Shown one piece after another: positions 1-43,058 of a DNA stretch of 64,000 bases (positions within the stretch are counted from its first letter, which is position 1; each line of letters starts with the position of its first letter). The DNA is taken from contig CM059577.1 in NCBI GenBank assembly GCA_030386875.1, forward strand, positions 24,873,038 through 24,937,037. Direction: 5' to 3'. The stretch is from Morinoia aosen. Lineage: Eukaryota; Arthropoda; Malacostraca; Amphipoda; Talitridae. The notes under the pieces are model-generated. The model made no database searches, was not told the origin of the DNA, and saw nothing but the letters and a program-made list of their open reading frames with translations. Both the position numbers and the translations under genes were made by a program.

Positions 1-50
1 AGAGGTGGAGTACCTGCAGAGGTGATGAGTACCTGCAGAGGTGAAGAAGG
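1..50 (-). repeat. Tandem duplication of a splice-donor junction (19 bp, cut by window edge)
   Basis: On the minus strand the junction CACCTCTGCAG/GTACTC occurs at 33/32 and again at 14/13, 19 bp apart, and the next unit starts as the window ends. The unit is the last nucleotides of gene A exon 2 plus the first of its intron, so every copy holds a candidate donor. The array probably continues left of the window. Confidence 0.75.
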
Positions 51-177
51 TGCAGTTGGAGAGCTGCCGGCAGAGGAGGAAGCAGTGGATGCGGCCCGAC
101 ACGCCCCACTGCAGGTTCACCTCCGTCACCGTCGGCACGCACAGCCCCTCGTAGTGAGGCTCCATCGCCAGCTCCAC
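33..177 (-). CDS. Gene A exon 2: PAN/apple-like domain exon
   Basis: Minus-strand exon with acceptor TTGCCCGGCAG before 177 and donor GCAG/GTACT after 33; 145 nt, phase 0 in and phase 1 out. It encodes about 48 residues with four cysteines spaced C-x18-C-x3-C-x5-C and ending in a CTFF motif, a pattern like the first half of a PAN/apple (extracellular adhesion) domain. It joins in phase to the signal-peptide exon at 2593-2703. Lectin exon 2 at 15801-15948 has the same phases, nearly the same length and the same W..., C...C.....CTFF layout, so the two genes look paralogous. Codons are strongly GC3-rich against the AT-rich surroundings. Later exons lie outside the window. The exact donor is uncertain because it is duplicated. 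PAN assignment is by pattern only. Confidence 0.7.
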
Positions 178-2592
178 CTGCCGGGCAAGGCAGAGACGCT
201 CATGAGTAGTAGCAAGCATGCACCACCTGCTTCAGCTGCTCGGAGAAGTCACAGATGCTCGTGAGGAATGGCAACCACGCACCGCGTGTTCGCTTTACTT
301 TCTCGCTTCTTTTCTTTCTGGGTGTGGGCCGAAGTGCTGTCATGCTGAAAAGGAAATTTTCCCCTTTAGGAGTGAGGACCAAAACACTATCGGGATAAGA
401 ATCATATAACTCTTGCTAGATTAGAATCGTCAAATGAACCGGAAACACTTCAAAAATATTTCTGTTTTTTTTATAAGGAATAACTGCTTTTTAAGATATT
501 TGTTCTCTATTTCCATGACAAATTTATTGAGAAATATCCGGTAAAATTGCGAAAGATACATCTAGTACAATCCCCAATAGAAAATCTTATCAAATAATTT
601 TAGATAGTTGTTTCAAACATATTTTTTACCCAGAAAGACTAAAATTATGTGATTTCAAAACCGTCAGTGGTTACTAAATTCAAATATAATAATTGAAATT
701 CCAAGAAAGTTAATCATTTCTGTCAGTGTTCATGCATCGTCAAAAATGACTCCGAAAGCTCGATCTTCTTGTCACATTTCTGTACATGAGATGTAAATCC
801 AAACGGTATGAAGAGGAATAAATAAACACAATAATAACTTTCTGACTACTTAAACATCTGGAAGTATGTGGTTAGCGTATGTGCGACAAAAACTCAACTT
901 CCTCTTTAGTTTTCCTTGCATTAAAACTCCAGGTGCGGACACGAGGCAAATGTCTCCGGCTAAAAAAATTACAAGTCAAAAAAATAAATTTGCAGTCATT
1001 ATAGAGAACTCAGGTGCTCACGTTGCAGTCAGTGTCAGTCTCAGTAAATTAAGATATTATGTAACATGTTTGCGTTTCTATTAATTTATAATTGGAACAG
1101 AACATTTCCTGGTTTGCATTGCTGTTAATTAGAACAGATAGGTCAAGCAAGCCACGAACAAACATTTTGTGCTTTATTATGCACGGTGTGAAAGGTATTT
1201 GAGGAGAGTCATGGTACGTTAATGAACAAGCATATTTTATATTGTCAGAAATTGTCAAATTATATATGTGAGGATATAAAATAATTGCATTAAACTTCCT
1301 AAGCCATTTATCTTATGCAGTCACCTTCAGTGTCAACGACTGGTTCAAAGCAGAATTGGAATCGCGGACACTGTGTGACCTTTATTTATTTTGGACATCA
1401 CCTGACAATGAGGGAACTCATAAAGTTGTAAAGGTAACGTTCAGTCTCCAATTCTACAAAGCTCCAAGCGCAGTAGAGGCATAAATCTGGCGAGTTTGGA
1501 GGCCACACATCGGTCGTTACCTGATCACGAAGATTATTTGAACACAAGTCTTGTGCTACTGGGCTGGATGAGAGGGCGCTGACTTTTGATGAAATGCGTT
1601 AGGACTTCCAACGCGTACTCCATCATCCCAGGGTGTAAAGACTGCCTCCTGTTACTCGATGTATTCAGCACCAATAAGTTCACGATCGTAAGTAATGAAG
1701 TGAGGAAGCATCGTGGGACCTTTGCTGCTTACCACAACTGAGCTCATCAAGCCGCACGAAATTTATCGTGCATCACTCTAGGTACATCACACAGATGTAT
1801 AGTACATCACTCTAGGTACATCACACAGATGTATAGTGCATCACTCTAGGTACATCACACAGATTTATAGTGCATCACTCTAGGTACATCACACAAATGT
1901 TTAGTGCTTCGCTCGAGGTACATCACACAGATGTATAGTGCATCACTCTAGGTACATCACACAGATGTTTAGTGCATCGCTCTAGGTACATCACAAAGAT
2001 TTATAGTGCATCACTCTCGGTACATCAAACAGTTGCATAGTGCATCGCTCTAGGTACATCAAACAGTTGTATAGTGCATCACTCTAGGTACATCTCACAG
2101 ATGTTTAGTGCATCGCTCTAGGTACATCACACATGTACACCCTATCAGATGTCCTTTACTGTGTTCTCTTTTGCTCATAACTATATTATTTATTCCGAAC
2201 GATCTCTTATGCAATATTTAGAGACTTGCCATTTTCTTAAAACCTGCACTTGATTTAAACCGAAAAGGTTTTTAAGCAACCAGAATGCCCTTTGCCCGTT
2301 CCTGTAGATTTTAAAACGTATTTCCATGACCATGGCATATATTTCATTTCTTATAAAATGTGTACTCCAATGTGATCTGTGAAGTTCACTGCCGAGTGGT
2401 ACTTTCTTCCTCACCTGATGTCGGTGACAACCTGATGCCAGTGCCCGTCTAATAACAGTAAAATGCAGTAAAAAGCAGTACCCTCGTACCTGAGTTCAGT
2501 TAGGTACACCCTCTTACAGTAAAATGCGTCGATAAATTTGCGCAGTGGAGGGCTGAGACGCAAAACAGAATTGAATTAGTGACCACACTCAC
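178..2592 (-). other. Gene A intron 1
   Basis: AT-rich intron between the two gene A exons. Apart from the 34-bp array at 1767-2134 I see nothing recognisable. A frame around 1325-1435 ends in a GTAACG donor-like site but has no homology I recognise. Confidence 0.55.
1767..2134. repeat. 34-bp minisatellite, about 11 copies
   Basis: Repeats of the pattern TGCATCACTCTAGGTACATC followed by ACACAGATGTATAG, at a steady spacing of 33-34 bp with scattered substitutions. It lies within gene A intron 1, away from both exons. Confidence 0.9.
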
Positions 2593-2703
2593 CTTTTGGA
2601 AGGTGGAACTCGGCAGCACCTGCGCAGTCACCAGCGCGCCGACCAGCACCAGCAGCACAGCGGGCAGCCCCCGCGCTGCGGCCTGGTCGCACTTGCCTCT
2701 CAT
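2593..2703 (-). CDS. Gene A exon 1: start codon and signal peptide
   Basis: ATG at 2703-2701 opens 37 codons ending at AAG/GTGAGT (phase 0), a strong donor. The peptide has a short basic start (MRGK), then a hydrophobic core rich in V, L and A around residues 14-27 and a likely cleavage region near TAQ at 26-28: a classical signal peptide. It joins in phase to exon 2 at 177. This ATG is chosen because it is the only start giving a signal peptide with a good donor and matching phase. The product should be secreted. Promoter modules shared with the IGF-binding-domain gene lie upstream at 2851-2884 and 2988-3010; I see no convincing TATA box. Confidence 0.72.
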
Positions 2704-2850
2704 TTGTGGGAGGTGCGGCGACTGCTTGGAAGTGTGCAAATTACCTAGGGCTTATTTGACCGGCGGATAGTGAGGCTTCAAACGCATCGTGTTGCACCTC
2801 GCGCTTCGCTGAGGGTATTTAAATATTAAAATGTTTATAGTATACATAGT

Positions 2851-2884
2851 GTGCACGGCCCGTCGAAAATAACGGGATTCAATA
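2851..2884 (-). promoter_or_regulatory. Upstream module 1 of gene A (shared with IGF-binding-domain gene)
   Basis: The core GGCCCGT..AAAATAAC.G.ATTC, written on the plus strand, lies about 150-180 bp upstream of the gene A ATG. The same core, in the same orientation, lies about 180-210 bp upstream of the IGF-binding-domain gene ATG (46250-46284). By eye about three quarters of 32 positions match. A transcription-factor or initiation role is inference. Confidence 0.45.
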
Positions 2885-2987
2885 CCATTCGTGAAAGTTT
2901 TTCCCAGAAGTGGATGACAAACAAATATATCCATCCTAACAGTGCCCGCGATAAAAAATATTATTGTACTTGTGCATTGGTAAAACT

Positions 2988-3010
2988 CGTATCACAGATA
3001 CGGTCATTAT
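2988..3010 (-). promoter_or_regulatory. Upstream module 2 of gene A (shared)
   Basis: TCACAGATACGGTCAT at about 285-305 bp before the gene A ATG; TCACAGATACGCTCAT is found at 46570-46592 upstream of the IGF-binding-domain gene, same orientation and same order relative to module 1. Each copy is preceded, at different distances, by a TGCCCGYG stretch with TAA-rich sequence. Confidence 0.45.
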
Positions 3011-3019
3011 AACTATCCT

Positions 3020-4920
3020 TACGAGCGTGACAGAGAATTGGAAGAAGCGGACTCCAAACAAATAAACAAGGGTATTATCGAGTAATTGCAGGTCTCATGA
3101 AAATTCCACGGACATGTCATCGTTAAGCAAGTGCTAATTATTGTGCACTTGTACAGCAAAAACGAGTGTGTTAATTTACCAGTAAACTGAAACCAAGACC
3201 GCCAGGGCTAATTTCTTCCTATGTATTCTTAAGAGCGTGAAACGAAACATATAAATAAATAAATATATGAATAAATATATATAAACACACCAAGGTCATT
3301 CTTAGTATTAGATTTTTGGAATATAAGAATGTCTATAGCATAATTATTGCTGCGCATACTTGTGCGTTACCGTGTTGGTGGGTGCCTGTGTGCATAAAAC
3401 TCATGAATATAAAGGTAATAATCTCAATTGCTTCCTTTCTATATTAAGGTGTTTGTAATTTTATTGCTTCGATAAGAGTACAATCATATTTTTTCTAATT
3501 TATTATCAAACAGATGAAATGATACATTCTTTGTTCATTACTGACTTTAATCATATTCATTTCTCAACTGTGCTCCGACAATTTTACTTCTGCCATGAAG
3601 TATTCTGGATAGGATGTAACCATTATAGGAAGGGTAAAGGCTGACATCAGCAAAGCAATATCAGTTTTGCTTTACTTTTGAACGGCTAATAAATTTACTG
3701 CTGATTACACTATGCATGAGGTAGAAAATGTGTCAGATCTCTGGATGACGCACATTACGCAAAGTCATAATATTTCAAGTCAAGTAACCATTTGCAAAGA
3801 AAGAAAATTAAACTAGTAATTATACCTCAGAATGCTTAAACTCTTGATTTAGGGGGAGCGACTGAACTGTAAAATTTAACTTGGTGAAAAATTTAACAAA
3901 CTGTAGTGGGCGAATGTGCAAACATACATGTTGACTTCTGTCGGCTGAGAAGTAAGCAAAGAAGAATTCCCAGGAAAATGTAAAGTTGCTGATACTCTCC
4001 CACAAAAATAAACAGAGAAAGCGCTTTACAGAAGAAGCTTACGCCCCAAAAATTTTGACGTCTCTCTTCAGGTCGAGGGCAGCATTCCGTTTTATGAAGC
4101 ACGGCCATCTGCCAGGCGCGTCACGCTGTAATTGGAGTAAATCACGCCACATGGTCCTAAGTACATGCGTGTGGTACCGTGAGGAAATTCTTTATTCCAT
4201 TTGCTCTCAGTAAGATGCAGAACTACCCAGAATAGCATTTTAATGGAAGTGTAGTGTAAATACTGAGACTCTGATGCAAGATATTCGTGTTCTATTTTAT
4301 GATTTTATTTGGATGAGAACTGAATGTTGTCAGAAATTTGCCGTGAACTGCATAAAATTGAACAGTTAATTCATTAGCACCGTAAAATAGATCATAACGC
4401 GCCAGTGAAGAAAGCACTCAGTGTAGTATGCAGTGGTGAATATAGCAGTAAAAGTACTATACCGGGTGTTCTGAAGAAGACGAAACCTCCAACAACGAAA
4501 CCAAAATTCAGATCAATAGTTTACTATTAGGAAACGTCAAACAACGTGACAAAAATTATGAGAACATTGATCTTATTTATTACGAATACTCTTCCTTCGA
4601 GCTCAAGCTCCATCATTAGTTCATTAAAAAGATAATCAATACATATCTTAAATAAAAGATGAAACGGCAACGAATTAGAAACATTATAAAAATGTTCATC
4701 AAGCGAAATGAAATTCAGCAGGCTTAATAAAGAGGTAGATCTCCATTAACTTTTTGGAAGGGATACAAACTGTCTGTATTATTGAAGTTTTGCTTTCACT
4801 AAAAATATAAATATTCTAGAACCCTAAGATGATTTGAAGTCGAACCTGCATCTTATATTTTAAAATTGGCAGTAGATACAGGAACATTTTAGTTTACTGC
4901 CTAACTACGTACTGCTGAAT
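3020..4920. other. No gene seen
   Basis: AT-rich sequence with a short (AATA)n/AT tract at about 3250-3293. No exon-like GC island, no transposon motif recognised. Confidence 0.5.
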
Positions 4921-4932
4921 GAGATGTGTGCT

Positions 4933-6100: not shown

Positions 6101-6109
6101 ATATTACTT

Positions 6110-8035: not shown

Positions 8036-9375
8036 TAGGTTAGGTAATGATGAAATTTTTCCACGTGTCCATAGTTTTTTCATGTTTGACATATCAGAAT
8101 AGCTTTGGTTAGAATAGCTTTGGTTAGAATTGGTTACGTTAGAATAGGTAGGATGTGTTAGGTTAGGATGGGTTAGGTTAGAATAGGTAGGATGTGTTAG
8201 GTTAGGATGGGTTAGGTAGAATGTTATGTTTGAATTTCTTAGGAAATGTTAATTCATTGTTTTCAGAGGTCCACCTAGCTTAATGATGACATTGGTTAAG
8301 TTAGGTTAGGATAGGTTGGGTTAGGATAGGGTTAGGTAGGTTAGGATTGGGTTAGGTAGGTTAGGATAGGTTAGCAGAAGTTACTTAATGGACCTTTTGA
8401 ATATGTAATGTTAGAATTTGTTAGGTAATGTTGAGAAAATTTTTCTCGGGTCCATGTTTTTTATGTTCGACATATTATCAGGATCGGTTTGGTTAGGGTG
8501 GGTTAGGATATGTTATTAAAGGTTAGGTTAGGTGATACTGACGGAATTTTTTCCATGGGTCTACGTTTTTATACGTTTCACATATTATCAGGATCGGTTT
8601 GATTAGGATAGGTTAGAATATGGTAGGATAGGTTAGGTTAGGTTAAGATAGGATAGAATAGGTTAGGTTTGATAGATTAACATAGGTTACGTAATGTTGA
8701 CGACATTTTTCCACGGGTCAACATTTTTTTATGTTCAACATATTATCAGGATAGCTTCGGTTGGCATAGGATGGGTTAGTATATACTATGTTAGATGGCT
8801 TACCATGGATGGCTTACTTTAGAATATGTTGTTAGAATTTGTTGGTTAATGTTGACCGAATTTTCTCACGGGTCCACCTAGCCTAACGATGACATTGGTT
8901 AGGTTAAGTTAGGATAGGTTAGGATAGGATAGCGTTTGATAGGTTAGGAAATTTTTAGTTTTAGTTTTGTCAAGTAATTTCGACAAAAATTTTTACTTGT
9001 CCACGGTTTTCTTTATGTTTGACATATTATCAGGATAGGTTCACTTAGGGTTGGTTAGGATATGTTAGGTTAGAATAGGTTAGGTTAGGAAAGGTTAGTA
9101 AAGGTTAGGTTGGTAAATGTTAGTTTAGTATAGGATCGGTAATGTTGATGGAATTTTTAAACGTGTCCACGGTTTTTTACGTTTGACATATTATCAGGAT
9201 CGCTCGGTTAGGATAGTATAGGTTGGCTTAGAATATATTATGTTGGAACTATTAAGAGAATGTTGGTAATATTGGTATTGGTAATGTTGGTATTAAGGTA
9301 ATGTTCACCGATCGACCTTGCGTAACAATGGTATTTTCCGTCTAATTTCCACGGGTCCTGCTAGTAATGATAATT
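8036..9375. repeat. Composite satellite of TTAGG-type repeats and a conserved non-telomeric core
   Basis: Stretches of degenerate GGTTA/TTAGG (for example GGTTAGGTTAGG, GGATAGGTTAGG) alternate with a recurring core of about 60-80 bp: TAATGTTGA.GAAATTTTT, CCACGGGTCCA, ATGTT.GACATATTATCAGG. Core copies are visible near 8045, 8415, 8525, 8690, 8975 and 9130; a variant form with CCACCTAGC..AA.GATGACA occurs near 8265 and 8870. A stray copy of the end of the core lies at about 7320-7340. TTAGG is the canonical insect telomere unit. Confidence 0.8.
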
Positions 9376-9519: not shown

Positions 9520-10256
9520 GTGTATATCAGTATCAACTGCATCAAATGCACCAACAGCATCAACTGCACCCACAACATCAACAGCATCAACTGCACCCAT
9601 AACATGAACCACACAAACAACAACAATAGCATTAACTGCGCCCGCTACAAAAGCTACATAAACAACATCAACTGCACAAACAACATCAACTGCACCAACA
9701 ACATCAACTGCACCAACGGCATCAACTGCAACAACAGCATCAACTCCACCCACAACATCAACTGCACCAACAACATCAACAGCACTAACAGTAACTACAG
9801 CAGCATCAGCATCAACTGCATCAACTGCAACAACAGCATCAACTGCAACAACAGCATCAACTGCAACAACAGCATCAACTGCAACAACAGCATCAACTGC
9901 AACAACAGCATCAACTGCAACAACAGCATCAACTGCAACAACAGCATCAACTGCAACAACAGCATCAACTGCAACAACAGCATCAACTGCAACAACAGCA
10001 TCAACTCCACCCACAACATCAACTTCACCAACAACATCAACAGCACTAACAGTAACTACAGCAGCATCAGCATTAACTGCGTCAACTGCAACAACAGCAT
10101 CAACTGCAACAGCATCAACTGCAACAACAGCATCAACTGCAACAACAGCATTAATAGCATCAATGACATCAAAAAGAAGACTGTAACTATAGCATCAACT
10201 GCATCAACTGTACCAACAGCATCAACAGCTTCAACTGCACCAATAACATCAAAAGC
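9520..10256. repeat. 18-bp minisatellite (CAACAGCATCAACTGCAA)
   Basis: Near-perfect 18-bp units in the middle (about 9825-10000) with degenerate trinucleotide-like flanks. A second, shorter run lies near 10080-10150, and the block between the two is a larger duplication. Because 18 is a multiple of 3 both strands stay open over hundreds of bases; composition and lack of splice or start context argue against a gene. Confidence 0.9.
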
Positions 10257-10339
10257 ATCCATAAATTATGAGGAAGACTGCGACTTTCAGCTAAATATAA
10301 AGTCTATTCGAAACAATGAATATTTTCTGCCAAAATGAT

Positions 10340-15459: not shown

Positions 15460-15790
15460 GAACACAGTTGACGTGATCACGGTTGACACAGTTGACGAAA
15501 TTGCAGCCCGGTTAACACACTGGACACAGTTCACACAAGTGGCACACATGATACACTTGACACAGCAATAGACACATCTGACACACTCGCAGACAAAATT
15601 GACACAATTACCACACTTGACACACCAGTTGACACAGCAGTTGACTCAGTTGGCTCAGTTGGCACAGTTGACACAGTTGACTCAGTTGGCTCAGTTGGCA
15701 CAGTTGACACAGTTGACACAGTTGATACAGTTAACACTGTTGACACAGTTGGCACAGGTAACACAGTTGACACAGCAGTTGACACAGTTG
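15460..15790. repeat. 9-bp minisatellite (GTTGACACA) ending at the acceptor of lectin exon 2
   Basis: Units GTTGACACA, GTTGACTCA, GTTGGCTCA, GTTGGCACA in tandem, most regular at 15640-15790. The array stops 10 bp before the exon, and its last unit leads into GCCACCCCCAG. Confidence 0.9.
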
Positions 15791-15800
15791 CCACCCCCAG

Positions 15801-15948
15801 TTCCGCCTGGCCCACTCGCTGTACTACAACACGGTCTGCCCGCCCGTGAACTTCTCTCTGACGTACAACAGGTGGGCGCTACCCACCCACCTGCTCTGCC
15901 TCGCACACTGCGCCCACACGCCTACCTGCACCTTCTTCTCATACATCG
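15801..15948 (+). CDS. Lectin gene exon 2: PAN/apple-like
   Basis: Acceptor TTGCCACCCCCAG/TTC; donor ATCG/GTGGGT; 148 nt, phase 0 in, phase 1 out. It encodes 49 residues with cysteines spaced C-x19-C-x3-C-x5-C and the ending CTFFSYI. It aligns with gene A exon 2 (shared LA..., YY/HY, C.P.V, W, LC...C.....CTFF). An earlier GT at AACAG/GTGGGC would cut the exon at residue 24, but then phase fails with exon 3, whereas ATCG/GT fits exactly (G plus CA gives Ala). The donor is the first unit of the 26-bp array that follows. Confidence 0.75.
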
Positions 15949-16330
15949 GTGGGTGTAGCGTTTCATACATCGGTGGGTGTTTTGCTTCTCATACATCGGT
16001 GCGTGTGTTACTTCTCATACATCGGTGGGTGTGTGGCTTCTCGTAAATCGGTGGGTGCTTAGCGTCTCATACGTCGGTGGGTGTGTAGCTTCTCATACAT
16101 CGGTGGGCGTGTTGCTTCTCATGCATCGGTGGGTGTGTAGCTTCTCATACATCGGTGGGCGTGTTGCTTCTCATACATCGGTGGGTGTGTAGCTTCTCAT
16201 ACATCGGTGGGCGTGTTGCTTCTCATACATCGGTGGGTGTGTAGCTTCTCATACATCGGTGGGTGTGTAGCTTCTCATACATCGGTGGGCGTGTTGCTTC
16301 TCATACATCGGTGGGTGTGTAGCTTCTCGT
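15935..16330 (+). repeat. 26-bp minisatellite seeded on the exon 2 splice donor, about 15 copies
   Basis: The unit contains TTCTCATACATCG, the last 13 nt of exon 2, directly followed by GTGGGTGTGTAGC, the intron start. Every unit thus recreates exon end plus GTGGGT. Variants have GTGGGC, GTGCGT or CGTAAATCG. The array begins at the exon itself. Confidence 0.92.
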
Positions 16331-16339
16331 ACACAAATG

Positions 16340-17432: not shown

Positions 17433-17624
17433 CACCAGTGTGCCTGCTGTGGACGTTCGAGCTGGACCCGAGCTACTACCAGGGAGGTTTCCTCTACAAC
17501 ACCATCGCCTCGTACGGACCGAGGTCTCCCCAGGTCCTCCCCCCCACCGACGTCGCTATGGGGAAGGCTGCGTTCCACGGAAGTCTTCTCGACGGCTTCA
17601 CCACTTCGCAAATGATCGTCAGAA
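17433..17624 (+). CDS. Lectin gene exon 3: end of PAN and start of F-lectin-like domain
   Basis: Acceptor TGGACTCTATTTTTGCAG/CA is strong. Enters in phase 1 from exon 2 and reads PVCLLWTFELDPSYYQGG, which continues a PAN-like domain, then YNTIASYGP and DVAMGKAAFHG, resembling the opening of F5/8C and fucolectin domains. Exit must be phase 1 to reach exon 4. Two donors do this: GGAA/GTCTTC (exon end 17582) and AGAA/GTTTGA (end 17624); neither is a strong consensus, so the 3' border is unsettled. Codon use is GC3-rich. Confidence 0.65.
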
Positions 17625-19994: not shown

Positions 19995-20050
19995 ATTACG
20001 AATTGCTGTCACAGCTCTTCTGTAACGGTCTCTCATTCATCACGTGGCCG
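19995..20050 (+). CDS. Lectin gene exon 4 (56 nt)
   Basis: A pyrimidine tract (TTTCTCTTTTGACCTTTTTCC) precedes acceptor GGGTGCCAG/AT. Phase 1 in, phase 0 out at CCG/GTAACGG. It encodes YELLSQLFCNGLSFITWP, where LFCNGL sits at the AVDGN-like position of F5/8C domains. Exit phase fits exon 5 exactly. Short and found by phase and context, so moderately sure. Its last 29 nt are the founding unit of the array that fills intron 4. Confidence 0.6.
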
Positions 20051-20960
20051 GTAACGGTCTCTCATTCATCACGTGGCCGGTAACGGTCTCTCATTCATCA
20101 CGTGGCCAGTAACGGTCTCTCATTCATCACGTGGCCGGTAACGGTCTCTCATTCATCACGTGGCCGGTAACGGTCTCTCATTCATCACGTGGCCGGTAAC
20201 GGTCTCTCATTCATCACGTGGCCGGTAACGGTCTCTCATTCATCACGTGGCCGGTAACGGTCTCTCATTCATCACGTGGCCAGTAACGGTCTCTCATTCA
20301 TCTCGTGACCGGTAACGGTCTCTCATTCATCACGTGGCCAGTGACGGTCTCTCATTCATCACGTGGCCAGTAACGGTCTCTCATTCATCACGTGGCCATT
20401 AACGGTCTCTCATTCATCACGTGGCCAGTAACGGTCTCTCATTCATCACGTGGCCAGTAACGGTCTCTCATTCATCACGTGGCCAGTGACGGTCTCTCAT
20501 TCATCACGTGGCCAGTAATGGTCTCTCATTCATCACGTGGCCAGTGACGGTCTCTCATTCATCACGTGGCCAGTGACGGTCTCTCATTCATCACGTGGCC
20601 AGTAACGGTCTCTCATTCATCACGTGGCCAGTGACGGTCTCTCATTCATCACGTGGCCAGTAACGGTCTCTCATTCATCACGTGGCCAGTGACGGTCTCT
20701 CATTCATCTCACGTGGCCAGTAACGGTCTCTCATTCATCACGTGGCCAGTGACGGTCTCTCATTCATCACGTGGCCAGTAACGGTCTCTCATTCATCACG
20801 TGACCGGTAACGGTCTCTCATTCATCACGTGGCCAGTAACGGGCTCCTAAACATCACATAGCCAGTAACGGGCTCCCATACATCACATAGCCAGTAACGG
20901 GCTCCCATACATCACATAGCCAGTAACGGGCTCCCATACATCACATAGCCAGTAACGGTC
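20022..20960 (+). repeat. 29-bp minisatellite filling lectin intron 4, about 28 copies plus 4 variants
   Basis: Unit: GTAACGGTCTCTCATTCATC then ACGTGGCCG (or CCA). The first copy is the last 29 nt of exon 4; the following GTAACGG is both the intron donor and the start of the next unit. Copies are nearly identical to 20840, then four variant units with GGGCTCCCATACATCACATAG lead to the exon 5 acceptor. Nearly every regular unit holds the palindrome CACGTG. Confidence 0.93.
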
Positions 20961-20978
20961 CGCGTTACCACGAGTCAG

Positions 20979-21143
20979 GTGATGGGCACGTCGTGCTACC
21001 CCAACGCGACGTCGTGCTTCGCGTCCGCAGCGCACAGCGCGGTTGTGAGCGTCGACCTGCTGCAGCCGCTGCCCGTGCGGCGCGTCGTGCTCACCGCCCC
21101 GGCCGCCGCCATGCTCGCAGCCTTCCGTGGCAAGGTCGTGCGT
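20979..21143 (+). CDS. Lectin gene exon 5: core of F5/8C-fucolectin-like domain
   Basis: Acceptor CACGAGTCAG/GTG; donor GTGCGT/GTGAGT (strong); 165 nt, phase 0 at both ends. The 55 residues include MGTSCYPN and SVDLLQPLPVRRVVLTAP, matching the core strands W.VDL....V..V.I of the galactose-binding-like fold, followed by LAAFRGKVV at the position of NF.V.V. GC3 is extremely high. Its donor is followed by a degenerate GTGCGTGTGAGTGT array. Confidence 0.8.
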
Positions 21144-21446
21144 GTGAGTACGCGTGCACGTGCGTGTGAGTGTACACGTGCGTGTCGTGAGTGTGGGGGT
21201 GCGCGTGGGTGCACACGTGCGTGTGTCATGAGTGTAGAATACAGGGCGGACATAAGTGTGTGGGCCTGTGAGGGCCTTTCACACGATCAGTTTTCTCGTC
21301 AGTGACACTCACACTCACGGTTCCGCAACACCATATTTAGGCATGCGTGCTCTCTTTAGCTCTTTCGGCACTCTTGGCGATGTTGGCTTGACTGTCGCTC
21401 TGCTCCCATTTTTGCATGTCAGTGTCTGCCCTGCGGGCGTCTAGTA

Positions 21447-22680: not shown

Positions 22681-23125
22681 CAACTTCAGTCACGCGAACG
22701 TACGTGTGAACGCGAGTGTTTAGACCACACTCTGTGAGTGTGAGTGTCACTGACGAGAAAACTGATCGTGTGAAAGCCTCTTAAGAATGGACGTACGTGT
22801 GTTGTGAGTGTGGATATGAGTTTGGGCGTGTGTATGAGTGTGGACGTAGATGTGAACTGAGTTTGGACAAACGTGTGAGTGTAGAGCTTGAGTTTCTTTG
22901 GAATTGCTGGTTTCTTTAGAGTTAGCGCTGGATATTCTCTTTCAGCAATAGCAACGAGCATTAGCAATCAGCATCCAACATTGTGGCATCAAACATGGCC
23001 ACCCCCATTATCATCCTCCAATAACATTCAGCCCTAAGTTTCAGCATCAGCAACCATCGTTACAACTCATGATCAAATGCCTGCACTAATAATTAGCGTA
23101 AGTATTCAGAGTTACGAGCGTTGAC

Positions 23126-28798: not shown

Positions 28799-28887
28799 TG
28801 TCCGGCAGTGTGCGCTACGTGAGGGTCGCTGATGAGAAGGATGACTTGACGGGCGTGGCGCTCTGCAAGGTGCAGGCCTACCTCTGA
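28799..28887 (+). CDS. Lectin gene terminal exon 7
   Basis: Acceptor TTGTGTGTTGTGTGCAG/TG; phase 1 in. It reads SGSVRYVRVADEKDD then LTGVALCKVQAYL and stops at TGA (28885-28887). YVRV followed by L.LC.V is the conserved C-terminal signature of F5/8C/fucolectin domains (L.LCEV.V), so the protein ends with the domain. High GC3. No AATAAA is seen shortly downstream; LINE sequence starts 4 bp after the stop. Confidence 0.8.
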
Positions 28888-29301: not shown

Positions 29302-32300
29302 CTAATATTCCGATAGGAAGTGAGTCTCGAGATTTCTTTTGAATACCTTGTAAGAATTACTATCACGGATCTCCGCAGGTATTGAGTTCCAAGTTTTAGT
29401 TCCAACGAAGAGGATACTGTGTTGCGACCGGGCCTTTGAATAATAAGGAAGCATGAATTTACTTCTATTTCGGGTTAAATGGTCGTGATGACCAGTTTGC
29501 GCGCTTAATAATAGTTTCAGGCTATTGTCGCCATCATTTCTTAATGTTTTGTAAATGAAATTACAAATGGAGATTTTATAGAGATCTGGAAGTTTAAGTA
29601 TTTGTAAATTTTTGAATGAATCATTTGTGTGAGCATTATATTCTAGATTCTTTACCGCTCTGATTGCTCTTTTTTGCAGAGTAAAAATTATATTGGTTTT
29701 ATTTTTATCAGTTCCGTGCCATGTTTCTATTCCGTACTGCAAGTATGGTGAAATGAGCGTTCGGTAGAGCATTCGTAAAGCTGTTTCAGGCAGGTAATTT
29801 TTAACTTTATTCAGGATTCCGATGGATTTCGATAATTTAGAACAAATATGAGCGATGTGCTCTTTAAAGGTCAGATGTTTATCTATTATGATGCCCAGAA
29901 ACTTGCATGAGTTGGTTTCTTCGATTTCACCTTCGCCAATTTTTATGTGTGGGAGAGATATGCTTTTCTTGTATGAGAATGTAATATACTTTGTTTTTCG
30001 ATGTTGAGGCTTATTTTATTAGCTTTAAGCCATAATGAAACCTTATGGAGTTCATTATTTATGCTCTCCGCAATCATAACGGGATTTTGGCTCGGAAGGA
30101 CCGTAGAAAGCGTGCTGTCATCGGCAAAAAGTATGAATTTGAAAAATGATGTTGATTTGATAATATCATTTATAAATATCAGAAATAGGAGAGGCCCTAG
30201 GACAGACCCTTGTGGAACTCCATGGCTAATTGTCTGTGGGTCCGATTTTGCGTCGTCAACGACAACGTATTGCTTCCGATTTGTTAGGTATGATTTGAAC
30301 CAATCATGGGCAATTCCTCGAATGCCATAACAGTGTAGTTTCGAGAGTAATATCTTATGGTCCACACAGTCGAATGCTTTTCGAAAGTCAAGAAAAACGG
30401 AGAAAACAAGCTTTCCTTCATCTATATTAGAGTAAAGGTACTGTAAATGATTTAATACAGCTTGTGTCGTTGATTTCTTAGAACGAAAACCGAATTGTCC
30501 GTCATAGAGAAAAGATTTTTGTTCAAAATACGAATACACTTTTTTATACACAATTTTTTCAAATATTTTGCTCATAATTGGTAAGACAGAGATAGGTCTA
30601 TAATTATTAACGCAGTTTTTATCACCGTTTTTAAAAATAGGGGTGACTCTGGCAGTTTTGAGAGAGTTGGGGAAGATACCTTGAGAAAGCGAATGGTTGA
30701 TAATATCAGATATGCACGGTGCTATTATATCAGCAATAGACTTAATAATTTTAGCTGAAAATGTATTTAATCCATTTGATTTATTTTTCAAGTTGTTTGT
30801 GCATGTAATTACATCGGAGGGGTTAGTTGGCGGGAAAAAGAAAGAATTGTGTTCACGGACATGGTCCATGTATTGCAAGTGGTCTTTAGGTTTACTAACG
30901 ACACTATCGGCTATATTTTTTCCTATATTTATAAAAAAGTTGTTGAACACTGTTGCAATATCTTGTTCATCATGATATTTTACATTTTCGTGAACGATGG
31001 ATTCAATTGTTTTTTTAGCGTTATTATTCGGTCTATAGCATGAATTAAGCAGGCGCCAAGTTTTTTTAATATCAGTTTTGTAGTCAGTGAATTTGCGCGT
31101 AAAGTAGTTTTGTTTCGATGTTCGTATTTGATTTGTCACATGATTCCTGAATCTGTTATACGTTAATCTAGAGATTCGTCCTTCGTATAGTAAGGCTAAG
31201 TGTGCTTGACGTTTCTTTATATTGATCACGATATCTTCAGTAATCCAAGGTTTTTGTCTATTTTTCGGCGTAATTGTGCGGGTGATTATTGGACAACATT
31301 GGTTATATGCGGTCGTTATAGTTTCAGTTAGTTTTAGTATTGCTTGGTCAATGTTAATCGCATTATTGTCTAGTTCATAGATGTCCAATGATGGCATTAA
31401 TTCTTCTAGAACAGTTCGCATTGTCCCCAAGTTATATTCGTTTATACAACGATATGAAAAAGTCTCAGCATGTGGGCTGTTGCAGGGACTATAGACATTC
31501 TTCTTGATGAGAAACACCGGAAAATGGTCAGATAAGTCAGAAATTATTATTCCTGTAAGAAAATCAGTCGGATCTAACATAAAAATATTATCGAGCAACG
31601 TGGCAGATTCGGATGTAATACGCGTAGGTTTCGTAAAGATTGGAAGGAAGGAGTTAGACTGAAAAACATTTATGAAGTTTGAGATTTGTTCACAGCTTTC
31701 ATATTGAAGAAGATCGTAGTTGAAATCCCCGCAAATTATTATGTCATTGCATAGAGATTTGTTAAACTGAGATATTATGCTTTGAAGCTCGTTCAGGAAA
31801 GAAATGTTGCAAGCTGTTGGGGGCCTATATACAGTCCTAAGTACAATCCGTTTACCATTTTTCGTTAGTTCTATAAATAGAGTCTCAATATGTTCACGAT
31901 TCATAGTTGCACTTATAATGTTTTTCGATGATATGTGTTTAGATATGTACGTACTGATGCCACCACCACGTTTGTTGCTACGGAGTGAATGATGGCTATT
32001 ATAGTTCTGAATTTGAATTAGGTCTTTAGTTGAGTCATCTAGCCAACTTTCGGTGAAACTGAGAACATCAAAATTGCTGTTTAGCTCAGTGATAGTACAA
32101 GATATTTCATCTATTTTCGGATAAATGGACCTACAGTTCCAACATAATACTGAGAGATCGTTACAGGTTTTTATCATCGATTCATTGAATTCTTTAATAT
32201 TTAGGTATTTACAATTCCCAGTTTCATTTAGGTTTGGATGCAGTCTATTCAAATGATTGAGATCTGGATCAATATCATCGAAAATATCAACATGGTCAGT

Positions 32301-32303
32301 CAT
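29302..32303 (-). pseudogene. LINE ORF2: endonuclease/reverse transcriptase, one frameshift
   Basis: About 1000 codons in two frames. The first 786 residues carry endonuclease motifs (LCWNCRSI near 53-60, FTESWL near 81, VYRPP near 158, GDFNYD near 192, LSDHFPVF near 258) and the reverse transcriptase (NYRPISVLP, GFRSKKST, FLDFRKAFDCVDH, GVPQGSVLGPLLF, FADDS). The frame breaks at an A run on the minus strand (29994-29998); loss of one base there restores the downstream frame, which stays open through the C-terminal PYLQYGIETWHG region to the stop at 29302. The two frames together make a normal-length CR1-group ORF2, so the copy is recent or the break is a sequencing indel. Start is the first Met, about 50 residues before the endonuclease. 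Confidence 0.88.
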
Positions 32304-32905
32304 AAAGATTAAGAAACAGTAAGTAAAATGTGACGTAAAAAATAAAGAAGATGATACAGACTATACAAGATCAAGTTAAAAGTAAAGACATTCCTATTAT
32401 AGTAAAATTTAAGAAATAGAGAGAAACTAAAACACACAGAGATTATTAGTCTAAATTATTTAAAATCTAGAATGATTTCATAACGAGATGGCTAACTCAG
32501 TCCATGAGTGGGAGCATTAGAGATCATAAATTGCGAATAGTGTAGTTACAAGGCTGTCATACCAGTGGTATCTGCATATAACACATACGATATAGCAAAG
32601 AACGAAGTGGATTAGAATCGAAGTGACAGCGAAGTTATTTAATTAATATAAAGATCTTGAGTATCTAGATTATTTTCAGATTTTGAGACAGGTGGTAACA
32701 TAATATTTAAATCAGAGTAGAAAATCCGGCATGAGCCTTCTATGAATAATGAGAAAAAGTAGATAAAAAAACAATTTAGTGAGCAGTAAAACAAAGTTGC
32801 AAATTCTGCGTGGTTGCTTTGAAGAGCCAAAGGCGATTCTATCAGAAAACAAAAGAAATCATGTGGACAGAGATCAAAATGCTATTAAATTCAGTACATA
32901 AGTCT
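32304..32905 (-). other. LINE inter-ORF spacer
   Basis: About 600 bp AT-rich sequence between the two ORFs, unusually long; no recognisable domain. Confidence 0.5.
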
Positions 32906-36540: not shown

Positions 36541-36544
36541 GCTT

Positions 36545-36890: not shown

Positions 36891-38020
36891 CACATCTTAA
36901 TAACTTTATCTTTCCGAGTTCAAAGCAAGTTTCATTATGAGCGAATATTTCCAAAAAGGTACTTTTACAATGCATATAAATTTAATAATTTGTAAATATC
37001 TCTTCGCGGGTAAAGAAAAACTTACCACATGTAGGCAGACGCCAGAGTTTGACATGCATAAGAATTTTAGCATACCGTATTCAGATAGATTATATAAGAT
37101 AAAATAAAATTTCTGCTAATTTAGCGAATACTTTCGAATTCTCTTTGTATTATTACGATTTAATTCCCATTGAATGTCATCTAAGCGTTGTGAGAAATAG
37201 AACAAAGAAGTTGAAAACTATTCTCCGGAGGCAAAAAAATTTGGTGCAACCAACTGTATCGAACTGGATGTAAAGTGTATCTTGGTCAATATTGTCATAT
37301 GATCTTTCCAGAATTTTACGATGTATATTCTACGCCGAGAAGATTTTCTCAAAAGAAATGCTCGTCAGGGAGAAAATGCTTGAGGAAGTGATACAAAAAC
37401 AAGAATGATTTACTCTTCCCTGAACCATTTAAAATGAGTATGAAAAAAATATGCATTTGTACGGAGGAGATGAGAGCAAAGAGCCTTCTATTTGAAAAAA
37501 ACTACCCTAATAGCAAATATCATGGGCGTGTTATACGCTGCACATGGAAGAGAACCGTAATTTAGTATTTAGTATTTTGATAATTCAATTTTTTACTTCA
37601 CTTTATATAATCTGGTTGGATTGGCTGAATAACTCATGCGCTAAGTACGGAGCTTCAGTCATACATGAGGTGGCTTGTATCGAATTCATTCTGCACATTT
37701 TATCCCTACAATTGCATCATCTCTGTCATGAATAACTTTCTGAAGTTAGAGCTATAATTCAATCGTTGAAAATACGCTCAAATAAACGTTCATGAGTGAA
37801 TTTTTTCTTGATTCTTCCTTATTTAGTCATAACTTTTCTCGATTGAATTTCAAAATATGTGAACTGCAATTAAAAAATTGGAACTGGTGGCACATTATGT
37901 GCTATTGTGTTCAAGTATCCAGTATACAGAGTGGCACTAGGGATCGAGAGCAAGTATCAAATATACTCTGCACCGTTAAAAAAGGAGATCGTACTAGTAT
38001 TATAGTAGTTACTAGTCTGC

Positions 38021-38215
38021 TCGTCGTAGCCGTGTGGTTAAAGTACCCGCCTTTCCGTGAAGGTGTCGAGGGTTCGAATCCCGGCGCAGTGAGGCGACTT
38101 TCTCCGTTGGGTACAAGGAAAAAACTCAAAGCACAATACCCCACTCTACCCAGGTGTCTGAAGTGGGCACCGGTCTTGACCGGGGGAAACCGTCATGACA
38201 TCCTGACAGTAGTTA
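38021..38215 (+). mobile_element. tRNA-derived SINE with pol III A and B boxes
   Basis: A box TAGCCGTGTGG (38027-38037) and B box GGTTCGAATCC (38071-38081) lie 34 bp apart in a tRNA-like head (serine/leucine-like). A non-tRNA body with TTTCTCCGTTGGG, AAGGAAAAAA, CCCCACTCTACCC and CGTCATGACATCCTGACAGT follows. A second, degraded copy lies at 26528-26660. The head does not fold as an intact tRNA that I can support. Confidence 0.72.
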
Positions 38216-38219
38216 TAGG

Positions 38220-39660
38220 CATTTGAAAAACCAATGTACAAGGTTATATGTATCATGCTTGATTGGAAATAAAGCATCCTTAGATGCCGATGCTTGTTTG
38301 TTTGAAGGCTTGATTTCCTTTGTTAGGATGTTTTTACAGAGGAATGAGAAAGAAACATTTCGTAAGGACAACGGAAAACGTAATTTCTATGCACAAGGTG
38401 TGGTCCCACTCAAGCTATCCTGCACATGGAAACAGCAAGTTAGGATGGGAGAGAAAAGAAAGAAAAACAAGAAATAGCGAAGAGGAAGTGAAAACTTGAA
38501 GAAGCAAAGTGTAAGGTCATCATGCAGTGTAGATAGTTACTAACTTAAGCTAGAGTGAGGAAGCTGATTATCACCCACTTTGCGCCGTTAAAGTAATGCA
38601 TGTCTTGTCGCAGAAGAACATTTCATGACGTGCAACGCAAAAAAAAAAACGATTATCTTTCCTCAACTTTTCTAGTTTAACGCTTATTTTGAACTGTGAT
38701 TACTCGAATATTTACTGGGTGGGGTAAAAATGATACCTGCTATTTTATAAGTTGTTCCAGCAAGCTAAAAAAATTAACGTGAACTTGTCTACTTCACCAT
38801 GTCTACTTCACCATGTCTACTTCACTTGCAGGAAAATTTACGAGAAAATTATTATTTTAACATATTCATGCAAACATTTAATGCATACGCAAACAATCAA
38901 CTCGTAAAAGGGGACTTATTTAAATAGAAACAAATAAAACAAACAATTTCCCTTAATGATCAACTATTTCAGCGGGATGAAAAGAATATGAATTGAGTTC
39001 ATTTTGTTAATACATGATTTAAAAAATGGTCCATTATTAACGTATAATATTATCGAAATGGTATATCATCAGCGCATAAAATTATCGCAATGTTATATCA
39101 TTAGCGTATATTATTAGCTCAATCGTGTATCAACGTAAGATATCGTCTCAAAGGTGCATCATAAATACATAACATTTTTTAAATTGAATATTAGTACTTC
39201 AATAGTACACTGATAGCGAGAGTCACGTACAGGGACGGATTTATGATCATTTATTATCAAATTCGTTCATTTATTTGCCACATATTTAAAATTAATTTAT
39301 ACCTTCTATTCATTGCTCCGATGGCCCGCAAGAATTCACTTTAATCTCCTAACCTAATTTTCAATTACCGCTGTCGTAAATTTAAAAAATGAATTATGGT
39401 TTTGGAAAAAATTAAGGTGTTAAGTGTTAATCTTAACACTTAAAAAACATACACAATCCAAAATTCACTAATTCGGTCCAAAATTTTAAACCAAATACTT
39501 GTTTTGAAATTTTTTTAAGATGTTCATTGTTACTGTGAACATTAAAAAAACAAATGCAATCTAACTTACACTATCCAATCCATGGTGTAGAGCTGATAGC
39601 TCACAGCTCAAGGCGCTCATGTAACACTATCAATGTAATTTTTATTTTACGACATTTTTA
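38220..39660. other. No gene seen
   Basis: AT-rich; a short triplicate of CTTCACCATGTCTA near 38795-38825 and a poly(A) run at 38639. Nothing else. Confidence 0.45.
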
Positions 39661-39664
39661 ACGC

Positions 39665-39842
39665 GACTTCATCAAACACTAAACAAAGTTCATCGACTCT
39701 AAGCGTCTCTAGCATCAAATTCTACATGATCTTCATCAAATACGAACTCGTGCTCCATCAAACCCTAAAATCTCCACCAAGCACAAACCCCTGCTTCATC
39801 AAAGCCTAACTCATGTTCATCAAATGGGAGTTCCATCAAACA
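39665..39842 (-). repeat. Degenerate TCATCAAA repeat at the 3' border of the candidate exon 4
   Basis: TCATCAAA-type words recur roughly every 20-25 bp (39668, 39711, 39733, 39756, 39795, 39818, 39834). On the minus strand this is TTTGATGA, and the first copy overlaps the stop region GTTTGATG of the exon, so the array starts from the exon end. Confidence 0.6.
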
Positions 39843-39966
39843 GCGACCCCTTGGGCTCGCAGCAGCCGCTTGATGTGCTCAGGGATGCCTCCGAAGTCGC
39901 GATGACGGTGCACTTTCGCCTGCACCCTCGCCAGCCCCACGCGTCGGCCCGTGTTGAGGCTGCGTT
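39836..39966 (-). CDS. Candidate C-terminal exon of the IGF-binding-domain gene
   Basis: A minus-strand GC-rich island with one GC3-rich open frame: RSLNTGRRVGLARVQ, then HRHRDFGGIPEHIKRLL, and TGA at 39838-39836. It fits if exon 3 is spliced at A/GTGAGT (41154) and enters here in phase 1 after CCCCAAG/AA, although that acceptor has a poor pyrimidine tract. If exon 3 instead runs to its own TGA, this would be an alternative exon or belong to another minus-strand gene. The peptide is basic, without cysteines; I do not recognise it. Confidence 0.42.
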
Positions 39967-39969
39967 CTT

Positions 39970-40915
39970 GGGGTACAATGTTCACTTAAACATCGTGTAT
40001 ATTCCATGTACATATGTGTACATATATGTATTTATCGTATCGTGTTAGGGAAAAATTACGCAAATATAGCATAGCCTGAAGTGAGTACTTAATTGTACTA
40101 CACATAAAGCATGATAATAATAAGTCCTAGTTACATTGTTCACTCATATTTCTCAATATTGGAGGTTTGAATTATTGCACGAGTGTTTCCCACAATAACG
40201 AAGATGTAACTTATATGTGTAGGTTACGCTATGGGGCACGTGATGTACTGCCCGACTTGCACAGTTCTATTTGCTTTGTTCATGTCTGAGCTGGTACTTG
40301 CTCAAATTATGAGTTCAAGCTCAAAAAATTAGGAAAATAAATAAAATTCAAATAAATGTACATAATTGGGCAATTTTTATAAAACTGAATCAATTTTGGC
40401 ATGCAAATCGAAAATATTTTGATTTTTTTCGTGAAACACTGACGACCGAATCGTAAGAAGTATTTTCTGCTCTGGATTGTATACAATTTTTTTTGTCAAA
40501 AAGAACATCAGGAAAGAAGCACGGAATACATTGAATAGAATGGAATAGAAACATTCTAAAATATATTAAAAAATATACGGAATTCAAAATAGTAGGAAGA
40601 ATGGGGAGTATATTACAAGATAGGGAATGTAAGATTATAGATCAAGCTATAGTCGGTGAGGTACAAAAATTGCTCTACGTGGTAGATATGGAACAACATC
40701 TTTCGTGCACGTGAAATGTGATATAACGTTGAATTAGGTCTTTGATATCGAAAAAGCCAATTTTATTGTTTCTCTCATTAATTTAATTTTTAACATCCTA
40801 ATAAATGGGTGAAGTACAATTATTGTTTTCCCCCATTAATTACGTATAAAATTTAATTTAAGTTTTAGCAACCTTATAATTGGGCGATGTACAACAGCAC
40901 GTTTCTCCCGGAGAG
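39970..40915 (-). other. Intron 3 of the IGF-binding-domain gene (if exon 4 is used)
   Basis: AT-rich, nothing recognised. Confidence 0.4.
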
Positions 40916-40919
40916 ACTT

Positions 40920-41140
40920 AATAAATGGATAAAACCGAACACTATAAAGTAGCACAAAACAGAACAGAGTAATAAGAAACTACACAAAGTAATACAAAAT
41001 AGCAGAGAGTTGTATTGAAATTTCAGAGAACTACAAAAACTATTATAAAAGAGCGTAGATTAAAATATAAAAGCGTAGAGTAATCTAAAAAAGTATAGAG
41101 TATCAGACAGGAGCGTAGAATATGAAGCACAAATTAGAAG
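40920..41140 (-). repeat. Degenerate 20-25 bp repeat beside the exon 3 donor
   Basis: On the plus strand AGCGTAGA(G/A)TA..A.AAAA, AGAGTAATA, AGTAATACAAA recur; on the minus strand TACTCTACGCTTTT. It starts within about 15-30 bp of the exon 3 end. Confidence 0.5.
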
Positions 41141-41142
41141 AA

Positions 41143-41286
41143 TCAGAACTCACTGGATCGCTCGATCTCGTTGTCGCGCTCGTCAGCACAGTAGGACTCG
41201 CCGTAAGGGCCGCTCTGGAGGCAGCTCAGGCCACCCCCGCACTCCCCGTACACGTTCCACGGCCCCCCGCACGGCTCTCCTTCTCC
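41143..41286 (-). CDS. IGF-binding-domain gene exon 3: second half of the domain
   Basis: Acceptor CCAACTGGTGCCCAG/GGA; phase 0 in. It reads GEGEPCGGPWNVYGECGGG, then LSCLQSGPYGESYCADE, matching the GE.CGG....G.C..GL.C......C end of IGFBP N-domains with four cysteines. The frame stops at TGA (41145-41143). Inside the last codons the sequence TCCA/GTGAGT is a near-perfect donor, 9 nt before the stop, so splicing can replace the last three codons by another exon (39966-39836). Confidence 0.8.
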   Translation of the reverse strand, partial: GEGEPCGGPWNVYGECGGGLSCLQSGPYGESYCADERDNEIERSSEF

Positions 41287-41314
41287 CTGGGCACCAGTTG
41301 GGGTACATAAAATA

Positions 41315-41900
41315 GGTTCCTTTCATGTTCCTTGTCTATATGGGGGGAATCAATGTTCCTTAAGGGGAAAATTTAGGTTATTTGGGGAAAAAATTTATGT
41401 TCTTTCTGGGAGGATAATTATATTTTCTATGGGGGAGGATTGTTGACGCTTGTATGGTTCGTTTTCTGCGTGTTTTCTCTGTAGGAAACGTTTGTGGAGT
41501 ATGAAATATTTTCCTTTTATGTTCCTTGTCTATACGAGGAGAATAAATGTTCTCTCTGGGAAAAATCTATGTTCTTGTTGAGAAGAATCTATGTTGGAAA
41601 GAATTATATTTTCTATGGAGAGCGTTGTTGGCCCTCACAAGGTTTTTTCCCTACTGGGGAGTGTCTTGTATATCCCATGTTTCCTTTCTACATCCCCATT
41701 TTGTCTGGTAGACTTCATATTTATTTTCTCTCGGGGAAGAATAATATCCTACAACACAGTTTTCCCTCTTGGAGAGAATTGTGGTGTATGACAAATTTCA
41801 TTTCCGTGGTCAATTTCTGTCTGGGGAGGAAGACAGAATGATCTCTTTCCTGAAGGAGAAGAGTTGAGGTGAATTTTGAACTTAATTTCTATCCTGCCAA
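41315..41900 (-). repeat. Degenerate repeat of about 180-190 bp upstream of exon 3
   Basis: TTCCTTT(C/T)ATGTTCCTTGTCTATA...GG.GAATAAATGTTC...GGGA and AATTATATTTTCTATGG.G occur at about 41330-41460 and 41505-41640, with weaker continuation. Within units TCTATGTTC...GGGGA words repeat at shorter spacing. Confidence 0.65.
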
Positions 41901-42309
41901 AATTATTGGTCTCACAAAAAAAGCTTCCCTTCTGCTTGGGGAGGACTAATGACGTGTGAAATGCATGTTATGTCCTTTATCTAGAAGAATATTATACTAT
42001 TCTTTACCTGAGAAGTAGTAATCGACTAACCTAGCAAAGTGGGACAAAGTTCTGAAAAAATTCAACATGAGCCAAAGTTAATTTTTGCATAAATTTCGAT
42101 ATGTTTAGAACAACAAATTTGCTATATTTTTTATCAGGAAGTTTCTAAAATTTATCATACTTTGTTAAATGAATAGGAATGAACACATTGCATAAAGATC
42201 ACGTCGCCGCACGCGCAACTTTGGGAAACTCTGCGCCTACCTGTCGGTACTCACAACTTTGCACAGCGCGCACCGTCACGCATCACACTCACAACTCTGC
42301 ACACTGATC

Positions 42310-42991
42310 ACTGCCTGCACACCTCGTAGCACCCACACACCCCCGACTGGGTGCCCCACTCACCGGCCTGCACACCTCGCAGCACCCACACACCCCCGAC
42401 TGGGTGCCCCACTCACCGGTCTGCACACCTCGCAGCACCCACACACCCCCGACTGGGTGCCCCACTCACCGGCCTGCACACCTCGCAGCACCCACTCACC
42501 CCCGACTGGGTGCCCCACTCACCGGCCTGCACACCTCGCAGCACCCACACACCCCGACTGGGTGCCCCACTCACCGGTCTGCACACCTCGCAGCACCCAC
42601 ACACCCTCGACTTGGTGCCCCACTCACCGGTCTGCACACCTCGCAGTACCCACACACCCTCGACTGGGTGCCCCACTCACAGGCCTGCACACCTCGAGCA
42701 CCCACACACCCCCGACTGGGTGCCCCACTCACCGGCCTGCACACCTCGCAGCACCCACACACCCACGACTGGGTGCCCCACTCACAGGACTGCACACCTC
42801 GAGCACCCACACACCCCCGACTGGGTGCCCCACTCACCGGCCTGCACACCTCGCAGCACCCACACACCCCCGACTGGGTGCCCCACTCACCGGCCTGAAC
42901 ACCTCGCAGCACCCACACACCCCCGACTGGGTGCCCCACTCACCGGCCTGCACACCTCGCAGCACCCACACACCCCCGACTGGGTGCCCCA
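42310..42991 (-). repeat. 53-bp minisatellite made of IGFBP exon 2 end plus splice donor, 13 copies
   Basis: On the minus strand each unit is TGGGGCACCCAGTCGGGG... to GTGCAGGCCG, the last 48 nt of exon 2, followed by GTGAG, the first 5 nt of the intron, after which the next unit starts. Thirteen copies of GACTGGGTGCCCC (plus strand) are countable from about 42345 to 42990; a few are 51-52 bp. Frames rotate every unit, giving long open frames on both strands without meaning. Confidence 0.95.
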
Positions 42992-43058
42992 CTTGCACCC
43001 GACGGGCTCCTCGCACTGAGCTTCATAGCACGGGAAGCACGTGAGGCCTTCCGACTCC
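42944..43058 (-). CDS. IGF-binding-domain gene exon 2: first half of the domain
   Basis: Acceptor TTGTGTGTGCAG/GGAG; phase 2 in, phase 0 out at CCG/GTGAG. It reads ESEGLTCFPCYEAQCEEP, then VGCKWGTQSGVCGCCEVC: the CxxC...C...GC...CGCC..C pattern of IGFBP N-terminal domains, eight cysteines. The exon end given here is the first possible donor; twelve further donor copies lie in the array that follows, so the true exon length may differ in vivo. Use of donors n units later adds 53n nt and shifts phase unless n is a multiple of 3. Confidence 0.82.

Follow-up and report, generated by a model that had tools for sequence, protein, structure and literature searches.

Minisatellites spanning 5' splice sites in a 64-kb window of the amphipod Morinoia aosen

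Minisatellite-like tandem duplications lying over exon/intron boundaries are known from amphioxus, where they have been termed "mirages" and where the cited sections of the reports describe them for Adh3 and for the globin genes BflGb6 and BflGb9 (PMC3087553; PMC3902484), as well as for PGBD5, with troponin C (TnC) cited as a further case (PMC3902484). According to the same sections, the units of these mirages differ in length, and splicing is believed to proceed undisturbed (PMC3087553; PMC3902484); mirages are found at both 5' and 3' boundaries and carry AG/GT signals in many of their units. A minisatellite in the human gene IFI6 (6-16) is likewise reported to give multiple splice donors (PMC3618361; PMC4526556). 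Here we describe a 64,000-nucleotide stretch of DNA (the window) from the talitrid amphipod Morinoia aosen (assembly GCA_030386875.1, contig CM059577.1, positions 24,873,038 to 24,937,037), in which the junctions of three 5' splice sites (donors), at window positions 33 (minus strand), 15948 (plus strand) and 42944 (minus strand), lie inside tandem arrays. We regard these arrays as probable boundary-spanning minisatellites of the mirage kind, which would have arisen by chance local duplication followed by near-neutral expansion within the intron.

Several features of the amphioxus mirages recur in the window: the junctions at 33, 15948 and 42944 are contained in the arrays, splice signals are present in the units, unit length is variable, and several genes of one genome are affected (the pair of genes A and B, together with gene E, in a single 64-kb window). 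Unlike the amphioxus cases, the arrays reside in an arthropod, reach 15 copies at the three well-supported donors, with units of 19-53 bp, and are known here from the DNA of one assembly. With IFI6, as far as the cited sections describe it, they share a repeat lying over a donor and units able to serve as donors; however, downstream copies are used in IFI6, whereas the later copies in the window mostly break the reading frame. Intron-making tandem duplications (PMC4974935; PMC2891723) are also local duplications carrying splice signals, but the cited passages have them creating a new intron from an exon, while the arrays in the window lengthen the edge of an existing intron. Because the amphioxus mirages and IFI6 had already been described, the belief expressed in a first-pass annotation of this DNA, that no genome shows splice-site minisatellites as a habit, is not right. 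What is apparently new is the crustacean host and the comparison of two species at one exon end; no donor-spanning minisatellite of a crustacean was present among the literature titles listed, whose coverage is limited and mostly leaves subscription papers outside. Boundary minisatellites, which the papers considered here describe mainly for lancelets, would thus extend to a crustacean, and the process would then be no peculiarity of cephalochordates.

We built gene models from the sequence, located the junctions exactly and tested the reading frames across the joins; donor scores were calculated with an approximate matrix. Tandem Repeats Finder (TRF), run on the whole window, gave units of 19, 26, 29, about 18-27 and 53 bp for the five arrays that the first-pass annotation had assigned to donors, and this agrees with the unit lengths given there. 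TRF rows scoring at least 70 were absent from all ten dinucleotide-shuffled windows (maximum score 59), and a search against Rfam returned nothing at gathering scores. Depending on the TRF threshold, tandem repeats make up 7.5 to 13% of the window, so that an overlap between arrays and splice sites needs its own chance test. In the assembly of the amphipod Trinorchestia longiramus, tandem repeats are given as the largest repeat class (6.18%) in the cited part of the report (PMC7062882). A donor-like site scoring at least 5.3 is contained in the consensus unit of seven of the 21 arrays in the window, and unit-borne splice signals alone are therefore a weak criterion for a mirage.

Three of the five proposed donor arrays (33, minus; 15948, plus; 42944, minus) are attached to convincing exons, while the site at 21143 (plus) is weak and out of phase and that at 20050 (plus) is without exon support. 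The arrays had been thought to start exactly at the junction; instead, they span it, beginning 12, 14 and 50 nucleotides inside the exon at 33, 15948 and 42944, respectively. Exon ends reported to lack arrays do so, the nearest array being 460 bp from 2593, 686 bp from 46027 and 1202 bp from the third exon of gene B, and the donor of the third exon of gene E at 41154 is a further array-free exon end (closest array 52 bp away). The supposed three different genes are two look-alikes, A and B, which are probably paralogues, plus the unrelated gene E. Three solid sites support a recurrence of arrays at different donors, the units having nothing in common, and a Trinorchestia homologue with yet another unit strengthens it.

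Gene E is a complete four-exon open reading frame (ORF) on the minus strand that encodes 141 amino acids followed by a stop codon. Exon E1 (46073-46027) provides a signal-like start and has a donor without an array, exons E2 (43058-42944) and E3 (41286-41154) encode the first and second halves of an IGFBP domain, and exon E4 (39966-39836) holds the stop codon. The deduced product matches PDB entry 3zxb (SIBD-1) with an E-value of 9.4e-8 and the Pfam family IGFBP with an E-value of 4.6e-6 (27.6 bits, just below the cut-off of 28). It has one N-terminal IGFBP-type cysteine-rich domain, preceded by a signal peptide judged by eye, and gene E is accordingly predicted to be of the single-IGFBP-domain (SIBD) type. 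Exon E2 ends in phase 0 at CCG/GTGAGT, and its donor is spanned by a 53-bp array of 12.9 copies (42313..42993, minus strand), the unit of which consists of the last 50 exonic nucleotides of E2 plus GTG. The first, exonic unit is identical to the consensus of 13 units; TRF reports 95% matches between units, and the units carry private differences and indels. CCG/GTGAGT or CCT/GTGAGT is present in 12 of the 13 units, and the junction hexamer CCGGTG has accumulated four changes in its six columns, a mean of 0.67 per column as compared with 0.32 elsewhere in the unit.

Forty-two donor-like sites scoring at least 5 are found around the end of E2, and the first donor of the array (score 10.12) yields the full 141-residue ORF. 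Each of the 38 such sites downstream of it leads to a stop at codon 72, 81 or 91, and buffering of donor mutations by the additional copies, as envisaged in the first-pass annotation, is therefore unlikely at 42944. Among the three upstream sites, two stay in frame but delete residues of the domain, and the third gives a stop. Inspection by eye of the edges of the duplication revealed that the exon (AAGTGGGG) has the tetranucleotide AGTG in common with the donor (GTGAGTGGGG), as would be expected from slippage or from a duplication mediated by microhomology. On the other side of the exon, a 55-bp array (window 43098-43241) stops 40 positions before E2.

When the 141-residue product was used as the query, the predicted T. 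longiramus protein P0123 was the only one of ten candidates with an E-value of at most 0.01, and it is 70% identical to gene E over the whole length; a protein search with a 61-residue SIBD query gave no match. P0123 reads ...CCTVCRP VGVQCAEVVCRP VGVQCAEVVCRP GKGEQCGG..., and hence contains a 12-residue unit twice, exactly at the join of E2 and E3. Of its 12 residues, four seem to be the final ones of the exon (VCRP), with eight more making up the rest. Since the unit of gene E comprises 50 exonic and three intronic nucleotides, the two arrays look as if they originated separately, with a unit equivalent to 36 bp in Trinorchestia and one of 53 bp in gene E. The annotation of T. longiramus drew on RNA-seq and Iso-seq hints, according to the cited part of its description (PMC7062882). 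An amphipod pair of this kind offers a handle on the rebirth of arrays at the same junction and on the frequency with which copies turn coding.

Exon B2 of gene B (15801..15948, plus strand) encodes a PAN-like segment (its Pfam match to PAN_1, with an E-value of 0.0037, does not reach the curated cut-off) and ends in phase 1 at 15948, where the phase suits the following exon, which begins at 17433. Its donor is spanned by a 26-bp array of 15.4 copies (15935..16333, plus strand) that includes 14 exonic nucleotides. Of 17 sites downstream of this donor, one is in frame (15972; 24 nucleotides, and thus eight residues, further on), three shift the frame without a stop in the tested piece, and 13 run into a stop at codon 81. 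In the array (15953-16333), half of the columns other than those of TCG/GTG vary. A 9-bp array (window 15478-15794) stops seven positions before B2.

Gene A lies on the minus strand and runs off the left end of the window. Exon A1 (2593..2703) begins with ATG and a hydrophobic, signal-like segment, and its donor AAG/GTGAGT is the array-free end at 2593. Exon A2 (33..177) ends with CTFFTSA in phase 1, and its donor is spanned by a 19-bp array of 2.4 copies (1..44, minus strand), which is cut by the window edge and includes 12 exonic nucleotides; its score was reached in none of 2000 local shuffles. Taken alone, A2 had no Pfam match with an E-value of at most 1. An alignment of exons A2 and B2 by eye, together with their shared phase-1 ends close to CTFF, makes genes A and B look like paralogues.

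The downstream part of gene B is less well defined. Exon B3 (17433..17617) has an uncertain 3' end (17617 or 17582), weak donors and no array nearby; exon B4 (20953..21143), the product of which is F5/8-type-like, has its 5' end at 20953 or 20979 and its 3' end at 21143 or at a later copy, e.g., 21165; and the last exon, B5 (28799..28887), ends with the stop codon. Pfam matches of gene B (PAN_1, E 0.0027; F5_F8_type_C_2, E 0.037-0.14) are all below the curated cut-offs, one composite had no F5/8 match in Pfam, and the F5/8-like piece had no matching PDB chain. The label "fucolectin-like" may suit this gene. The end of B3 (17600-17617) and the start of B4 (20965-20985) both encode TTSQ and are, by eye, approximately 60% identical in DNA sequence over 20 nucleotides, a likeness that makes the true B3/B4 join ambiguous.

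The 29-bp array of 32 copies (20022..20960, plus strand) had been proposed as the donor array of an exon ending at 20050. We tried five upstream AGs as acceptors for such an exon, four of which leave some open frame: one has none, two have a single open frame (137 and 117 nucleotides) and two have two open frames (56 and 36 nucleotides). The 137- and 117-nucleotide stretches have no Pfam match with an E-value of at most 10, and the others are below searchable length. An exon end at 20050 is thus without support; the array is positioned on the 3' splice-site side of B4, where it adjoins or includes the candidate acceptor CCAG/TAACGG at 20953. Of its 32 units, 22 end with CCAG/TAACGG, nine with CCGG (eight of them within the first ten units) and one with CCAT; as a donor, the consensus unit scores poorly (2.17), while the CCGG variant reaches 5.3. 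As the acceptor that the array reaches may be either 20953 or 20979, this case of a 3' boundary depends on an uncertain site.

Weak GT-rich tandem repeats (21137..21225, plus strand; TRF scores 56-64) cover the 3' end of B4; 12 of 2000 local shuffles reached the score of 64, which makes local composition an unlikely sole cause. The donor at 21143 is in phase 0, whereas B5 needs phase 1, so that we rejected 21143 as a used donor unless an unseen exon lies between them. Nine listed sites near the end of B4 fit B5, the strongest of which is the same motif one copy further on, at 21165. With the 9-bp and 55-bp arrays located upstream of acceptors, B2, B4 and E2 each have repeats on both sides.

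A plausible course of events can be outlined for the mirage-like arrays. In a genome rich in tandem repeats, local duplications would sometimes take in the last bases of an exon together with the donor GT, either via replication slippage or via unequal exchange between short matches. The first copy would remain exonic, and selection at the level of the protein would preserve its sequence, while the other copies would be intronic and removed by splicing, and their expansion and homogenisation would be nearly neutral. Duplication of the junction would be tolerated as long as the outermost donor remains functional; one donor would mostly be used, and a later in-phase copy would occasionally be adopted, thereby lengthening the exon. 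We infer this duplication mechanism, the use of the donors in RNA and the near-neutrality of the expansion. The arrays would not constitute a general donor reserve, and single copies may enter exons.

Several points count against this explanation. The arguments for splicing are reading-frame arguments from DNA only, the array at 33 has just 2.4 copies, and the Trinorchestia repeat was read from a predicted protein rather than from DNA. The B3/B4 joins involve very weak donors (scores of 0.08 or -4.53), and gene B may consequently hold an unseen exon. Strict neutrality is hard to reconcile with repeat copies that become coding, as in P0123 and possibly at 21165 and 15972. Finally, none of the 15 units of the B2 array has a change in the junction hexamer TCGGTG, the only changeless six-column window among 26, which is not favoured under pure neutrality; when positions to +6 are included, the junction no longer stands out, since 13 of the 26 windows are as low.

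Among the alternatives, a junction-directed process survives best, unlikely as we consider it to be. Here, minisatellites would be actively nucleated by donors, whether by motifs resembling GGTGAGTG/GGTGGGTG or by R-loops at the ends of transcribed exons, and the starts of arrays would be enriched at 5' splice sites genome-wide. Our chance test, a post hoc rotation of the arrays against the eight donors that used the uncertain positions 17617 (B3) and 20953 (B4), speaks for such a process at low thresholds: four of eight donors are spanned at TRF scores of at least 50 (P 0.004) and three of eight at 60 or more (P 0.04), as compared with one of eight acceptors at every threshold (P 0.49-0.67), which is what chance predicts. 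However, significance is lost at higher thresholds, two of eight donors being spanned at scores of at least 100 (P 0.19), 200 (P 0.13) and 400 (P 0.09). Arrays within 50 bp are found at four of eight donors (P 0.052) and three of eight acceptors (P 0.22) at a score of at least 50, and at two of eight donors (P 0.33) and three of eight acceptors (P 0.12) at 100 or more, and are hence about as frequent on the acceptor side. The enrichment at donors within the window is weak, threshold-dependent and suggestive at best, and the eight donors are a tiny sample, examined because arrays had been noticed. A junction-directed process would account for the different units at an orthologous exon end in two amphipods and for the differing arrays at the paralogous ends of A2 and B2, but the array-bearing exon ends have no common base composition. 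G-rich exon ends were rejected as nucleators, since the G-skew of these ends is inconsistent (-0.60 to +0.44). Because the test fails at stringent thresholds, one proposed site is without an exon and another is weak, a donor-directed habit is unsupported in the window.

We regard as rather doubtful the wider proposition that minisatellites have arisen on 5' splice sites of amphipods many times and independently, that different species gain new units at one and the same orthologous exon end, and that in-phase copies are captured as coding sequence. If true, donor-anchored repeats would continually supply extensions of exon ends and new peptide repeats.

A quite improbable explanation is that the extra copies are kept as a reservoir of donors, either as insurance against donor mutations or as a source of useful length isoforms. 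The model would be human IFI6, whose downstream repeat units are employed as donors according to the cited part of the report (PMC4526556). In its favour, the donor of the second B2 copy (15972) keeps the frame, as does the second-copy donor at 21165 with respect to B5, the predicted protein P0123 contains two extra units, and the TCGGTG hexamer is invariant in the B2 units. Downstream copies of the IFI6 kind should provide usable in-frame donors, but an intact ORF results from none of the 38 downstream sites at E2, and the frame is kept by one of 17 at B2, at best a single copy. Moreover, none of the consensus unit lengths (53, 26, 29 and 19 bp) is divisible by three, and the E2 junction hexamer is more changed than the rest of its unit. 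Mis-assembly of array copy number or placement is very improbable: units as similar as those at E2 are hard to assemble, and one amphioxus mirage was aberrantly assembled in a draft, as the cited section reports (PMC3087553), but private differences and indels distinguish the units, several unrelated arrays are concerned, and the corresponding exon end of a second species also carries a repeat.

Other features were noted in the window. The segments 21270-21330 and 22700-22770 look by eye like mutual inverted copies; a repeat search with a minimum length of 60 listed no inverted pair. A period-9 array (ATCAACTGC-like; 9528-10259) lies within a 284-residue stop-to-stop open frame. A GATTCGAACCC-like B-box is present on the minus strand at 38000-38210, a segment that may be a tRNA-derived short interspersed element. 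Degenerate TTAGG/GGTTA-type arrays with a period of five and its multiples occupy an internal site (8122-9134) and resemble the arthropod telomere repeat. The region 49039-63989 consists of about three tandem copies of a unit of roughly 4.8-5.1 kb (spacings 4790-4806, 4855-4868 and 5077), which are 67-97% identical in families of 200-300 nucleotides and have a strong negative GC skew. The minus strand at 29943-32360 holds the ORF of a non-LTR (long terminal repeat) retrotransposon, a long interspersed element, in which domains for endonuclease and reverse transcriptase are recognised; among the 120 listed of its 226 relatives, the best is 63% identical, and one listed relative is from the crinoid Antedon.

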